Source of the DNA: Polyangiaceae bacterium
GTDB taxonomy: Bacteria; Myxococcota_A; Polyangia; Polyangiales; Polyangiaceae
DNA length: 64,000 nt
Assembly (NCBI GenBank): GCA_022842465.1
Contig: JALHPN010000014.1
Coordinates: forward strand, 1-64,000
Direction: 5' to 3'
The position numbers and the translations under genes are program-made. Positions 3,587 through 64,000 of the stretch are shown here, piece after piece; position 1 is the first letter of the stretch, and each line of letters starts with the position of its first letter. The notes below the pieces were generated by a model, which saw nothing but the letters and a program-made list of their open reading frames with translations, ran no database searches and was not told the DNA's origin.

Positions 3587-4996
3587 GTGAGACGCTCGCG
3601 GCTTTCGTGGATCGCCGTCGCCGCCGCCCTGGGAGGCTGCGCGGGCGGCCCGACGCGCCCTCCGAGCACGGCAGAGGTGCGGGTCTCTGCTCCGGCGAAG
3701 ACAGCGACGGCCGGCCGGACGGCGCGCCCGCCGGCGAAGGCCGCCCGGCAGCCGGACGAGGAAGATCGGGCCGTGCCGTGTCGGACTGGCACGAGCGAGC
3801 ACGCCGCCGCCGAGTCCACGATCGACGTGATCGACACGCAGATCACGGCGCTCCCTCCCGCGGGGGATCCGAAGCCCGTCGAGCGTTCGCTCACCGCGCT
3901 CCTCCAGACCCCGTGCTTCGCCCTCGCGAGGGGCGACGGCGGGGACGAAGGCGACCTCGTCTTCGACGCTCCCTTGTCCCTCCAGCGATGGTGGAGCGAC
4001 GGCGGCGAGGCGTGGGTCCGTCACTTCCTCGAGCTCTCGGGCGCGCCCGGAGAGCCGAACGATCCGGTCTGGAGCTGGGTGCCCCCGACGCCCCGTACCG
4101 CCCTCACGCGCGAGTCGAAGGGCGCGGGCGCGCTCCTCCCTCTCCTGTGTCCCGCGAAGGACGAGACGTGCGGGCGCGAGACGCTCGGCTGGCAGAGGCG
4201 CGCCGAGAGCGCCTTCGACGCGCATGCGCGGGCACGCCTGCGCGGCGACGAAGCCGCCGTCGACGACCCGCTCGAGCACTGCCGCTCGAAGGCGAGCGCC
4301 GCGCCCGAGGAGACCCGCTACGACGCCTGGCGAGAGTGCCTCGGGAGCACGACGCCGCACGTCGACGCTCTCCCCCTCGGCCGCTTCCGCGCGCCGACAG
4401 ACGGGTGGCTCGTCCTCCGCGGTCGACGCGGTCACTACGCCTTCTGCGACGAGGTCCGCGCGTACGATCTCGCGACCGGGAGCGCATGGACGAACGGGAC
4501 CTGCTCGCGCCTCGCGCTTCGCGACGACGGCTCGGTGGACGGGGCCGCGACGAACGCGCAGCGCGTCCCGCAGACGACCATCGGACGCCTCCCCCTCGAG
4601 AACCTGCGCGAGGCCGCCCTCCTCACGTTGCTCTCGCCGCACGCGCAGACCAAGGTCGTGCGGGAAGGCTACGCCCGCGCGCTCCCGGCCGACGTCACCC
4701 CCGTCCGGACCGGGTTCACCGTCCATGGCCTCGGCATGTCGGCGACGGTCTCGAGCGGACAGACGACGCTCGCGTGGAGCTGGGTCGTGAAAGGCGCGAC
4801 GGTCGCCTCGGGGGAGCTCACGTTCCCGAACGACTTCAACGACGCCGTCCGCGACCACGCCGTGAGCCTCCTCCAGATCGCGGAGGCGGCCTTCACGCCG
4901 CTCGCGCCGGCCGAGTGCGCCGCGGGAGCTCCCCCGTCTTCGCTGCCGTTCGACGTCAAGCGCGCGCGGATCTGCGGCAGAGGCGGCGCGCGCTGA
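3587..4996 (+). CDS. Lipoprotein, unknown function
   Basis: A 469-residue exported protein starting at GTG. The signal sequence ends in the lipobox LGGC (Cys near residue 18), followed by a low-complexity Ala/Pro/Lys linker. The rest contains paired cysteines (for example CPAKDETCG) and no recognised domain. It lies 42 bases after kinase 1 on the same strand, so the two may be co-transcribed. It converges with the DUF1232 gene 6 bases downstream. Confidence 0.75.
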   Translation: MRRSRLSWIAVAAALGGCAGGPTRPPSTAEVRVSAPAKTATAGRTARPPAKAARQPDEEDRAVPCRTGTSEHAAAESTIDVIDTQITALPPAGDPKPVERSLTALLQTPCFALARGDGGDEGDLVFDAPLSLQRWWSDGGEAWVRHFLELSGAPGEPNDPVWSWVPPTPRTALTRESKGAGALLPLLCPAKDETCGRETLGWQRRAESAFDAHARARLRGDEAAVDDPLEHCRSKASAAPEETRYDAWRECLGSTTPHVDALPLGRFRAPTDGWLVLRGRRGHYAFCDEVRAYDLATGSAWTNGTCSRLALRDDGSVDGAATNAQRVPQTTIGRLPLENLREAALLTLLSPHAQTKVVREGYARALPADVTPVRTGFTVHGLGMSATVSSGQTTLAWSWVVKGATVASGELTFPNDFNDAVRDHAVSLLQIAEAAFTPLAPAECAAGAPPSSLPFDVKRARICGRGGAR

Positions 4997-16650: not shown

Positions 16651-17519
16651 CGCGACTCCGGTTCTCGAGGCAGCGGGCCAGCGTACAGATCCTCGTGTCC
16701 GACACGGAGGCGAGACTCGCCGCGCCTCACGAAGTGCTTGCGGCGGGCGAGCCACGGGCCCGCCGCCGCGCAGCCCGCCTCGCTCGCGGCCGCGGCGATG
16801 CCGGCGAGCAGAGCCTCCTGGATCGCGACGTCGCGGTCGAGCTCCCAGTCGCTCGTCCTCCGCTCGACGTCGAGCCCGTGGCCGGCGAGCCGCGCGGCGA
16901 GGTGGGCGGCAGCGGCAGGACCGAGCGCCGGGCCGAGGCCCTTCTCCCGTCGCATGTGCGCGTGGAACGCGGCGAGCACCTCGCGATCGGCGGCGTCCTC
17001 CGGCGCGAGGACGTGGCGTCCGTCGACGCTGAGCGTCGCGAGGAGGAGGCATCCGCTCTCTGCGACGGACGCGGCGAGCTCGTCGAGCCAGACCTCGCCC
17101 GCGAGATCGAGGAGGGCCGAGGTCACGACCGCGTGCGCGCCGGCGATCGCTCGCGAGAGGTCGCGAGCGAGCGGCACGACGTCCCACGTCACCTCGACCT
17201 CGAACGACGACGCCACGAGCCGGAGCGCGGACGACGTCGACGTCACGTGCGCCTCGTTCGCGCCCGCCCAGCCTGCGATCACGCCGGGGAGCGCGTCGAG
17301 GTGAGCCACGTCGTGATCGACGAGGTGCCAGCGCTGGTGCCCGCCGAGACGAGGCGCGAGGTGGAGGAGGTTTCCGCCCCGCCCCGCGCCGAGATCCACG
17401 ATGCGCGCGCCCTCCGGCAGCGCGCGCCGGAGACGCTCCTCCAGAGCGACGCTCCGCGCGGCGGAGTCGTGAGGTGCGCGAAGCGCGAGCCAGCGAGCGG
17501 CGAAGGTCTCGCCGCTCAT
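16647..17519 (-). CDS. Class I SAM-dependent methyltransferase
   Basis: 290 residues. Motif I (IVDLGAGRGGNLLHL, near 38-52) binds S-adenosylmethionine, and WHLVDHD follows as the acidic loop. Substrate unknown. The start ATG overlaps the glycosyltransferase stop, and its own stop overlaps the SelO-like start, both as ATGA. This indicates translational coupling. In this context it most likely methylates the product of the RibD/dehydrogenase/GT4 steps. Confidence 0.85.
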   Translation of the reverse strand: MSGETFAARWLALRAPHDSAARSVALEERLRRALPEGARIVDLGAGRGGNLLHLAPRLGGHQRWHLVDHDVAHLDALPGVIAGWAGANEAHVTSTSSALRLVASSFEVEVTWDVVPLARDLSRAIAGAHAVVTSALLDLAGEVWLDELAASVAESGCLLLATLSVDGRHVLAPEDAADREVLAAFHAHMRREKGLGPALGPAAAAHLAARLAGHGLDVERRTSDWELDRDVAIQEALLAGIAAAASEAGCAAAGPWLARRKHFVRRGESRLRVGHEDLYAGPLPREPESR

Positions 17520-61333: not shown

Positions 61334-62041
61334 ATGCACATCATCGGTGGCTCGCGCCCTGGGGCGCCCGGAGGCGGAGGCGGCAGCGGAAAGAAGGATG
61401 CGGGCGTCGTCCCGTACGTGACGGAGCGCGACTTCGAGCAAGAGGTGCTCCTCGCCGAGGTCCCCGTGCTCGTCCAGTACACGTCCGAGCGGAGCCAGGC
61501 CTGCATCGCCATCGCGCCCGAAGTGGACGCGTTCGCGAAGGAGATGCAGGGAAAATGCAAGGTCGTGAAGGTCGACATCGACAAGGCGCAGGCCCTCGCG
61601 CGCCAGCTTCGCATCCAGCAGCTCCCGACGTTCATGCTCTTCGCGGAGCAGCGCCTCGCGGACGCGCAGGTCGGCCCACTGAATCGCAAGCAGCTCCGCG
61701 CGATGGTGGAGCCGTTCCTCCCCCGCCAGGAAGGCGCCCTCAAGGCGCGCGAGCTCGCCGAGCTCCTGAAGCGTGGCGGCGTCGCGCCGGTGGACGTGCG
61801 TGATGCGCAGGCCTTCGGGCGCGCGCACCTCCCGGGGGCGACGAGCCTCCCCGCCGACGCGATCGAGGGCCGGCTCGCGGAGCTCTTCATGCTCCCCGGC
61901 CAGCCTGTCCTCTACGACCGCGCGGGCGAGAAGACGAAAGAGCTCGCCGTGAGGCTCGCGGAGGCGGGCGCGCCGGTCGCGTTCCTCGAGGGCGGCATCC
62001 TCGCGTGGGAGGCCGAGGGTCTTCCGGTCGAGCGGCCCTGA
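61334..62041 (+). CDS. Thioredoxin-rhodanese fusion lacking catalytic cysteines
   Basis: 235 residues. The thioredoxin fold (about 30-135) keeps VPVLVQYTSER, KCKVVKVDIDKAQALARQL and the cis-Pro QLPTFMLF, but the CxxC site reads ERSQAC, leaving only the second Cys. The rhodanese-like domain (about 145-235; VDVRDAQAFGRAHLPGA, FLEGGILAWEAEGLP) has Asp where the sulfur-carrying Cys belongs (VLYDRAGEKTKEL). Neither domain should carry out its usual chemistry. ATG at 61334 is preferred; the frame is open to 61223. Confidence 0.85.
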   Translation: MHIIGGSRPGAPGGGGGSGKKDAGVVPYVTERDFEQEVLLAEVPVLVQYTSERSQACIAIAPEVDAFAKEMQGKCKVVKVDIDKAQALARQLRIQQLPTFMLFAEQRLADAQVGPLNRKQLRAMVEPFLPRQEGALKARELAELLKRGGVAPVDVRDAQAFGRAHLPGATSLPADAIEGRLAELFMLPGQPVLYDRAGEKTKELAVRLAEAGAPVAFLEGGILAWEAEGLPVERP

Positions 62042-62048
62042 GCGCGGC

Positions 62049-62867
62049 TCAGCCGGCTCTCGTCTCCGAGAGCTTCCGCATCAGCTCCGCCGTCGCGTCG
62101 TCCGCGGGGAAGTACGTCTCGATCCGGAGCTCCTCCGCCGTCGCGTCGATCGCGGTCCCGATCGTCGAGATCATCGTGAAGAGCCTCGCCTCGTAGGGGC
62201 CGCGCACGAGGTGGAGGGTGAGGAAGGGCCCGAGCTCCGCCCCCGAACGGAGCTCGGGTCGCGGGAGGTCGGGGATGGCGTCGAGGACGGCGCGCACCTC
62301 CGCGTAGGCCGGATCGTCTGCGGCGCGCGCCGTCTCGCGCCGCGCGCGCTCGAGCATCAGGGCGGCGGCCTCGTCGAAGTTGACGATGGACGGTCGGAGC
62401 CCGAGAGGGTGGAGGCCCGCGACGAGCACGTTCTTCATCACCTCCGGCGGCGCCGCGGCCATATCCATGAACACGGCGAGGAGGCGGAGAGCGCCCGCGT
62501 TCATGGCGAGGATGTTCCATGCGCGGTCGCACGCGATCGCCCCGTTCGGCTCGACCCCGTGGAGCACGAGGTCGACCGCCCGGCGGAGGGAGGCTGCGGC
62601 GGGCGCGTCGAGCGGCTCGTCGCGATACGCCGCCACGAACCCGGCGGCCTCGAGGAGCGTGTTGCGGTCCCGGAGGGTGAGGTCGAGCGCCGATCCGAGG
62701 AGGAGCACCATCGTCCGACTCGGCGTCGCCTTTCCGGTCTCGAGGCAGCTCAGGTGACGCGGCGAAATCTCCGCGTCGCGCGCGAGCCGCTCCTGGCTCA
62801 TGCCGCTCTTGGTACGGAACCGGCGGAGGAGCGCGCCGAAGGGCGAGGCGGAGACGACGGTGGCCAC
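62049..62867 (-). CDS. XRE-family regulator with MmyB-like ligand domain
   Basis: 272 residues. The N-terminal HTH (LLRRFRTKSGMSQERLARDA, EISPRHLSCLETGKATPS) is classic XRE. The C-terminal part (CDRAWNILAMNAGALRLL, RRAVDLVLHGVEPNGA, PFLTLHLVRGPYEARLFTMIS) matches the MmyB-like domain that follows HTH in many soluble regulators. TAACCT ends 6 bases before the GTG. The palindromic array at 62901-62933 lies over its -35 region, so autoregulation is likely. Convergent with the thioredoxin-rhodanese gene. Confidence 0.92.
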   Translation of the reverse strand: MATVVSASPFGALLRRFRTKSGMSQERLARDAEISPRHLSCLETGKATPSRTMVLLLGSALDLTLRDRNTLLEAAGFVAAYRDEPLDAPAAASLRRAVDLVLHGVEPNGAIACDRAWNILAMNAGALRLLAVFMDMAAAPPEVMKNVLVAGLHPLGLRPSIVNFDEAAALMLERARRETARAADDPAYAEVRAVLDAIPDLPRPELRSGAELGPFLTLHLVRGPYEARLFTMISTIGTAIDATAEELRIETYFPADDATAELMRKLSETRAG

Positions 62868-62873
62868 GGGCCC

Positions 62874-62879
62874 AGGTTA
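62874..62879 (-). promoter_or_regulatory. -10 hexamer, leaderless start at 62867
   Basis: TAACCT, 6 bases before the GTG of the XRE regulator. Confidence 0.5.
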
Positions 62880-62900
62880 GCGGGAGCCCCGCTGCGCCGT

Positions 62901-62933
62901 CATGACCTCCGAGGTCATGGTCGCCATGACCTC
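62901..62933. promoter_or_regulatory. Palindromic operator between XRE regulator and membrane gene
   Basis: CATGACCTC (62901-62909), one base, its exact inverse GAGGTCATG (62911-62919), five bases, then CATGACCTC again (62925-62933). The first pair is a 19-base perfect palindrome. Position over the regulator's -35 and 21 bases before the divergent ATG fits repression of both genes. Confidence 0.7.
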
Positions 62934-62954
62934 GCGGCTCCATCCTCTCCCATC

Positions 62955-63275
62955 ATGAACAACGTCCTCCGGGTCGGAGCGCCGATCGCCCTCTTCCTCG
63001 TGTTCACCGCGTACACGCTCGACGTGGCGCACACGCACGGGCTCCTCGGGTTCCTCTCGCTCGCCGGGCGCGAGCGGTGGGGCATGCAGCTCCTCCTCGA
63101 CCTCGTGATCTCCCTGTTCTTCGCAGGCGCGTGGGTCAAAAACGACGCGAGGCAGCGCGGGATCGACGCGCGGCCCTACCTCGTCGCGATGGCGCTCGGC
63201 GGCTCCGTCGGCACGTTCGCCTACGTCGTCCGCCGCTCTCTCGCGCCCGCGCCGCAGCGCCACCCGCAGCTCTGA
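62955..63275 (+). CDS. Small membrane protein, DUF2834-like
   Basis: 106 residues with three hydrophobic segments (VGAPIALFLVFTAYTL, LLLDLVISLFFAGAWV, YLVAMALGGSVGTFAYVV). WVKNDARQRGIDARPY between the second and third helices resembles DUF2834. Divergent from the XRE regulator across the palindromic operator and therefore its probable regulatory target. Confidence 0.75.
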   Translation: MNNVLRVGAPIALFLVFTAYTLDVAHTHGLLGFLSLAGRERWGMQLLLDLVISLFFAGAWVKNDARQRGIDARPYLVAMALGGSVGTFAYVVRRSLAPAPQRHPQL

Positions 63276-63287
63276 CCTGCGCGTCGC

Positions 63288-64000
63288 TCAGAACGCCACC
63301 ACCACGTCCACCGTCCGCCCCGCCCGCACCGACACGCGCGATCGCGTCTCGGGCGCATGCAGCAACATCGGCACGAGCACCCCTACCGCCGTCCCGAGGC
63401 CCGCGCCCGCGAGCGTATCGGTGAGCCAGGCGTCGTCCGAGGCGATCCGCGCGTACGCGGTCGCCGCCCCCAGCCCCATCCCGGCCCCCCAGACGAGCGG
63501 CGCGAGCCGATAGCCGCGCATCGAGGCCACCGTCCCGCTCGAGGCCGCGAGCGCGAAGGCCATCGTGGTGTGGGTGGAGGGCAGCGAGCCGAGGCCCTCC
63601 GCCGGGGCGCTCCCGACCGCGTCGACGTCGGCGCGCGCCGACGCGTGCCATCGGGGACGCTCGCGGGCGAAGGCGAGCCCGAGGCCCTGATCGAGCACGA
63701 CGGCCGCGGCGGTCGCCTCCGCGACGAGGAGCACGTCGACGAGGAGCTCGTCCTTCCGACGATCGGCGAAGGCCGCGAGGGATCCGAGGCCCAGGGCGAG
63801 CACCGGGGCGGCGCCGAACGCGAGGATGTGGCTCACGTTCCGCGCGGGGGTGGTGTCGTCGCGGACGAGCGCGTTGCGCGCCCCTTCGTCGAGCCCGTTC
63901 GACGCGCCGCCCGCCTTGCCGTCGCAGGCGCGACACGACGAGGGCACGAGATCGTCGTGGAAGACGACCGAGGTCACCGCGAGCGCGGAGAGCCCGAGCG
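63288..64000 (-). CDS. PAP2-superfamily protein with altered catalytic motif (5' end outside window)
   Basis: The frame stays open to the right edge; codons beyond 63977 read LGLSALA, probably the end of a signal peptide, so the true start is outside. Domain landmarks: AFARERPR (phosphatase motif 1), PSTHTTMAF (PSGH motif 2), and YARIASDDAWLTDTLAG for motif 3, where the family has SRxxxxxHxxxD. The nucleophilic His is Ala here, though Arg and Asp remain. Several membrane helices. Lipid-phosphate phosphatase ancestry with doubtful activity. Confidence 0.8.
   Translation of the reverse strand, partial: LGLSALAVTSVVFHDDLVPSSCRACDGKAGGASNGLDEGARNALVRDDTTPARNVSHILAFGAAPVLALGLGSLAAFADRRKDELLVDVLLVAEATAAAVVLDQGLGLAFARERPRWHASARADVDAVGSAPAEGLGSLPSTHTTMAFALAASSGTVASMRGYRLAPLVWGAGMGLGAATAYARIASDDAWLTDTLAGAGLGTAVGVLVPMLLHAPETRSRVSVRAGRTVDVVVAF

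Follow-up and report, generated by a model that had tools for sequence, protein, structure and literature searches.

The 19-bp palindrome between an MmyB-type regulator gene and a small divergent gene in this stretch of Polyangiaceae DNA (the window, 64,000 nucleotides) is very probably an operator common to two back-to-back promoters, through which the regulator would act on its own gene as well as on the small gene. This reading draws on sequence comparison: the palindrome is conserved with the regulator family, its distance from the -10 elements is rigid, and it is also present at small genes that have no regulator beside them.

The divergent region and its genes

The putative operator was read directly as a perfect 9-1-9 palindrome, CATGACCTC-C-GAGGTCATG, at positions 62901..62919 with its centre at 62910, and it is conserved upstream of homologues. 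It consists of half-site 1 (62901-62909, + strand) and half-site 2 (62911-62919, - strand), between which the central C is unpaired. A third half-site, again CATGACCTC, is located at 62925..62933 (+ strand), 5 bp from the palindrome towards the small gene, and half-sites 2 and 3 together make up a second, overlapping inverted repeat of the form 10-3-10, GAGGTCATGG-TCG-CCATGACCTC (62911..62933). The earlier note had described three half-sites in alternating orientation, one pair of which forms a perfect 19-base palindrome, and both the letters and the coordinates of this array check out. Its statement that the array fills the divergent region was overstated: the start codons are separated by 87 bases (62868-62954), and the array occupies 33 of these.

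The regulator gene (62049..62867, - strand, GTG start at 62867) encodes an XRE-type helix-turn-helix (HTH) domain and an MmyB-like ligand-binding domain (MLTR_LBD). Its putative -10 element, TAACCT at 62874..62879 on the - strand, is separated from the palindrome by 21 bp and from the GTG by 6 bp. The small gene (62955..63275, + strand, ATG at 62955) encodes 106 amino acids that look hydrophobic by eye, and its candidate -10-like element, CATCCT at 62941..62946 on the + strand, is likewise 21 bp from the palindrome. With regard to the neighbouring genes, a thioredoxin-rhodanese fusion gene (window 61334-62041) stands tail to tail with the regulator gene, and a PAP2-family phosphatase gene (window 63288-63977) comes directly after the small gene, encoded on the other strand.

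The structure model of the small protein has helices at residues 3-39, 41-68, 73-82 and 84-96, and a comparison with PDB folds gave no match (best E 7.8). Nor did the protein of the window match any Pfam family at 1e-3; at a relaxed limit an ABA4-like family (15.2 bits) and a viral E5 family (13.2 bits) appeared, both below cut-off. DUF2834 (PF11196) was unlisted for this protein at an E limit of 5; the HMMER filters drop most weak matches. Mention of DUF2834 was found in two papers. Three relatives of the small protein scored 24.8, 15.9 and 13.5 bits against DUF2834, the first of which passes the cut-off of 22.9. The previous label 'DUF2834-like' thus finds weak backing in one relative out of three and is too strong for the window protein itself, which has no Pfam match at 1e-3.

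Occurrence of the putative operator beside regulators and small genes

To examine conservation, we used a set of 99 homologues of the regulator, comprising 54 places from the family, 38 from a phylum sample and 7 from named genomes. The family source held at least 55 places, with the regulator in at least 39 of 108 genomes; one of these places, a fragment lying at the end of its contig (G052:C284), was excluded. The number of candidates scored per genome was at most 23 in the family, 6 in the phylum sample and 44 in the search for the small gene, which makes the genome counts minimum values. The regulator was found in at least 42 of the 377 genomes of the phylum sample; 4 of the 42 places were already in the set, leaving 38 further ones. 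The named genomes contributed 14 loci. Five of them were dropped, L019 as partial and L021-L024 as either partial or HTH-only, and of the remaining 9 two more, L015 and L016, were taken out because they duplicate G382 and G042, which gives 7. In two of the 99 records the upstream DNA was too short, so that 97 were scored for the consensus CATKACCTNNNAGGTMATG, with at least 13 of its 16 letters counted as a match.

By this measure the operator was present just upstream of 62 of the 97 regulators; among the controls, none of 1940 dinucleotide shuffles and two of 761 stretches of downstream DNA had it. A lack of conservation upstream of orthologues, which had been set beforehand as refuting the reading, was thus not observed. 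When the form with a 4-base centre was allowed as well, the operator was seen at 64 of the 99 homologues; the more distant homologues L098, L103, L110 and L113 have the same half-sites around a 4-base instead of a 3-base centre. A search of 1500 bp, in which both spacer lengths were scored without penalty, brought 10 of the 35 misses to at least 13/16. Seven of these sites lie between -497 and -577, where they might head an upstream unit that runs in the same direction, two have the 4-base centre and stand close to the gene, and one is a TTACAT variant. The remaining 25 still fell below 13/16; several of these have a related site that is weaker or cut short. At one close orthologue (G022:C524, 65% identical) the operator is absent within 1500 bp upstream.

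Several individual loci deserve mention. At L080 (G066), L094 (G022:C228) and L096 (G023:C253) the operator lies about 500-560 bp upstream of the homologue, and at L080 it stands before a DUF4345 gene that is followed by the regulator, so that the two genes might form one unit behind it. TTACAT-type variants of the palindrome, which may be due to chance, were seen in Actinomadura (L017, GATTACATGCCATGTCATC at -46) and in Rhizobium (L018, CATTACATCGCATGTAATT at -668, 13/16).

It is also evident that the operator goes with the small gene. The latter stands opposite the regulator at 39 of the 99 homologues (small-gene profile, E <1e-10), and the operator is present at all 39 of these loci. Within the family the small gene was found in at least 13 of 108 genomes, all 13 of them among the 39 with the regulator (p 3.9e-7, kinship ignored). 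In ten of the 13 it adjoins the regulator. In the other three (G005, G022 and G046) it lies elsewhere and carries the operator at the usual place all the same (16/16, 14/16 and 13/16, respectively), and tblastn detected no remnant of a regulator within ~2 kb of these small genes. As judged from the sequences, the operator belongs to both the regulator gene and the small gene, because it is found at all 39 divergent loci and also at the three small genes away from the regulator. The small-gene copies L178 (G022:C136) and L179 (G046:C84) contain one in-frame stop each. L180 (G005:C95:57560-57901) has a perfect operator in the promoter of a small gene without a regulator within ~2 kb, and could be either a natural trans target or an orphaned operator.

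Next we considered how rare the palindrome is. With the central base left free, it occurs without mismatches at one place in the 9.57-Mb genome; up to three mismatches added eight more places, every one with three, and the reversed control gave five in all. The 12-letter core TKACCTNNNAGGTMA, in which G/T freedom is allowed, was likewise found at one place in the genome (control 0). Half-site 9-mers with one mismatch are in excess in the window (35 vs 11 expected), scattered throughout it, and were not counted as support for the array. The earlier note saw in the array a concrete target site for an MmyB-type regulator and suggested a search for further palindromes in order to define a regulon. 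The first part holds by comparison for the palindrome, as a probable operator; the search returned a single core, and a wider regulon in this genome was rejected, there being no clear excess of places with up to three mismatches (9 vs 5 in the control). Since the core is single, there is no sign of a wider regulon, and the target set in this genome looks like just the regulator gene and the small gene.

In the 108 family genomes the form ATGACCTNNNAGGTCAT was found at 19 places (reversed control 0) and the variant ATTACCTNNNAGGTAAT at 8 (control 0). Ten of the 19 exact sites are directly upstream of an MmyB-type regulator gene. The eleventh, L092 (G062:C48, record place 4452-4468), falls between an MLTR_LBD regulator gene, at its 3' end, and the next co-directional gene, which encodes an RCC1-repeat protein, as if the target were downstream. 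The other eight are away from any MmyB-type regulator gene: one at a small gene (G005:C95), two inside coding sequence (a glycoside hydrolase in G040 and a CBS-domain protein in G102) and five elsewhere, exact off-regulator sites also being located at G022:C257, G026:C361, G082, G083 and G094. These eight would be expected if the palindrome were the site of some other regulator that merely happens to act on these genes. We nevertheless consider this highly improbable: the 13 places of ATGACCTCNGAGGTCAT are spread over 12 genomes, and the regulator is present in every one of these (p 1.4e-6, kinship ignored); in the phylum sample, too, the site is found repeatedly in front of such regulators; and a residue of the recognition helix goes with the letters of the site (see below). 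At one of the sites away from a regulator (L089, G022:C257, record place 17357-17373) the exact palindrome ends ~50 bp before a gene whose product looks outer-membrane-type by eye and has no Pfam match; G022 is also the genome that holds the regulator orthologue lacking its own operator.

Promoter geometry and the third half-site

Fifty-seven loci with a 3-base centre and at least 14 of the 16 letters were aligned on the palindrome. The strongly conserved letters stop at its edges, save for a C on the small-gene side (55/57) and a weaker G on the regulator side (33/57). On the regulator side, a TAnnnT -10 element stands 20-21 bp beyond the palindrome in 42 of 59 loci and the start codon lies 32-35 bp from the palindrome in 43 of 59, the two being combined in 36. 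The regulator gene is apparently leaderless, as far as leaderless starts can be deduced from spacing, and with the start codon taken as +1 the centre of the palindrome falls at -42 to -45 in 45/57 loci. On the small-gene side,.AnnnT was found at 20-21 bp in 27 of 38 loci, compared with 0 to 5 at any other single offset. Its first letter is C in 22 of the 27 and T in one, and such a CAnnnT is a weaker -10 than TAnnnT.

The best -35 match scored 2.88/6 on the regulator side (2.24 in shuffles) and 2.96/6 on the small-gene side (2.26 in shuffles), slightly above the shuffles in both cases, and no convincing -35 was found on either side of the palindrome across the aligned loci. A strict sigma-70 scan of 62800-63010 returned no promoter. 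The claim that the array covers the regulator's -35 is thus right by position, with no recognisable hexamer at that place; the missing -35 may only reflect poor conservation of this element in such GC-rich genomes. A reading of the palindrome as an RNA hairpin or terminator was rejected, as it lies upstream of both putative -10 elements and no terminator was found near it.

The features associated with a class-II-type activator are present, namely a fixed -10 distance, a centre near -42 and a poor -35, and a geometry centred near -43 would fit activation as well as repression. In the mechanism that we propose, the palindrome would be bound by one dimer, with a helical turn between its two recognition helices; the centre of the bound site would lie at about -43 of the regulator gene, itself apparently leaderless, and at the equivalent position for the small gene. 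Since both promoters have a -10 and lack a real -35, we lean, by analogy, towards a bound dimer that would help RNA polymerase, and perhaps towards a fatty-acid-like ligand that changes binding, being less sure of this than of the operator itself. Lambda CI aids RNA polymerase at PRM.

The same regulator on the same operator could also be a plain repressor, its dimer sitting on both -35 regions until a ligand releases it, which we hold to be plausible if short of probable. The palindrome does cover the place of both -35 elements. For a repressor, however, a constant spacing of 20-21 bp to the -10 would be unnecessary, unless the operator in part doubles as a -35, and a convincing -35 is missing. 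Two known cases speak for repression: in the available text of PMC7532634 the XRE protein MsrR represses its own gene and a divergent gene, and the divergent arrangement of regulator and target is, in the available text of PMC3406030, the rule for the MmyB paralogues of S. coelicolor (15/16).

The third half-site was scored as present when at least 7 of 9 letters matched on the side of the small gene, with exactly 5 bp between the half-site and the palindrome. It was seen in 9 of 38 small-gene loci and in 1 of 21 others, a comparison for which the tree gives too few pairs to decide on an association. Six of the nine loci form one clade (the window, G007, G001, G066, G004 and G006); outside this clade the half-site occurs in G026, G377 and G172, and also in G120, which lacks the small gene. 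On a quick regulator tree its occurrence needs at least five changes. The three half-sites had been presented as a single unit; of these the palindrome is retained at all small-gene loci (39/39) and the third half-site at a minority of them (9/38). Judged by its distribution, the latter is a recurring but patchy, not a universal, element.

The third half-site may be functionless in itself, either a remnant or something that arose as the DNA was rearranged or the palindrome copied; we find this explanation possible yet somewhat improbable. The half-site is missing at the 5-bp offset in 29 of the 38 operator-bearing small-gene loci, and by eye it has no matching partner half further out; a second palindrome built on it was rejected for want of this outer half. 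Against such an origin stands its recurrence at exactly 5 bp in lineages beyond the window clade, with different spacer letters and the several changes on the tree. Moreover, in the orientation of the third half-site all other offsets from 0 to 15 yielded one match in total, and in small-gene loci the direct orientation gave 3 matches at offset 0, 2 at offset 2 and 1 at offset 4. Where present, a functional third half-site could take up an additional subunit, or a dimer in a shifted position, and so damp the promoter of the small gene and not that of the regulator, a reading that we regard as doubtful and as our weakest inference.

Possible recognition by the regulator and relation to known systems

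The regulator matched the Pfam families PF17765 MLTR_LBD (77.1 bits, cut-off 26.3) and HTH_31 (46.6 bits, cut-off 27), and its AF2 model had a pLDDT of 84.6 and a pTM of 0.70. With this model, the top two Foldseek matches were both chains of 3pxp (MltR), with E 2.4e-11 and TM 0.52-0.55. MltR (Caur_2278, PDB 3pxp), like the MmyB family, shares the combination of HTH and MLTR_LBD and is the best fold match to the window regulator. The rmsd between the model and 3pxp was 12 over 285 columns, and the domains may thus be set differently in the two proteins. MltR also differs from the window regulator in its recognition helix, as seen in the alignment, so its site should differ too.

Residue 41 (GTG = 1) lies in the third helix, which spans 35-42 in the model (model numbering is one less), at a place that we take to be the base-contacting position in the 434 repressor. 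In association with base 4 of the half-site this residue came out on top at three redundancy cut-offs out of four, and in second place at the remaining one. Where the residue is C, Y or W (n=28), 25 of 28 operators are G/G and none T/T; with F (n=34), 7 are G/G, 11 mixed and 16 T/T. On the tree these numbers reduce to five supported independent pairs, about three with the association and one against, and a reading of half-site base 4 by residue 41 is for this reason suggestive only. As proof of binding, the residue-operator code was rejected on the same grounds.

Among known systems, the C proteins of restriction-modification (C.AhdI, C.BclI and C.Esp1396I) have the XRE HTH fold of the window regulator. 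C proteins and lambda CI combine an activating operator near -35 with one or more further sites that damp a promoter. The extra element here is, unlike theirs, a single partnerless half-site and not a second palindrome; beside the first palindrome there is a half-site only, and no second full palindrome as in a C-protein-type two-site switch. To our knowledge, C proteins have no sensor domain. A more elaborate scheme, which we consider unlikely to hold as a whole, would be a lambda-like switch with a lipid-sensing regulator: one palindrome would activate two leaderless promoters, the third half-site would be a one-sided brake, the level of regulator or ligand would choose between 'regulator only' and 'regulator plus membrane protein', and residue 41 (C/Y/W vs F) would read half-site position 4 (G/T). 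If true, the reading by residue 41 would be a usable code for predicting the sites of this regulator subfamily.

The locus resembles the MmyB family in having a regulator opposite its neighbour across a short common region, here 87 bp between the start codons. According to the available text of Xu et al. (2012, PMC3406030), MmyB-type regulators in most cases face away from their target, with a short region between the two, and a two-fold symmetric site with helices ~10 bp apart is predicted for them, which the 9-1-9 palindrome fits. The same text mentions 'B-boxes' of Streptomyces coelicolor MmyB, pseudo-palindromic sites of a related regulator that we liken to ours by description only. Unlike the targets known from the family, the partner here is a small membrane protein and not an SDR/MDR or antibiotic gene; such targets are, in the text of PMC3406030 at hand, a tendency in actinomycetes and not a definition of the family. 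MsrR of Corynebacterium glutamicum, as portrayed in the accessible part of PMC7532634, is also an XRE regulator that acts on its own and a divergent gene via one intergenic region; it differs in that it senses oxidation and represses. In that text MltR is counted with the small number of XRE regulators that have been studied.

A 2025 survey of XRE palindromes reports, in its main text, 223 motif clusters (PMC12565409), and its motif table may list the present operator motif. No defined motif for MmyB/MltR-type regulators was found in the part of the PMC literature covered, and no PMC paper contained any of six forms of the operator core as strings. Sites of MmyB/MltR-type regulators thus seem hardly described so far, and the operator with its promoter geometry, as predicted from the sequences, would be newly defined for a member of a known regulator family. 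A motif that keeps a constant promoter geometry and goes with a single small membrane protein offers a direct way to find targets of such regulators. It also lets activation and repression be tested against each other, and a reporter be set up for a ligand search.
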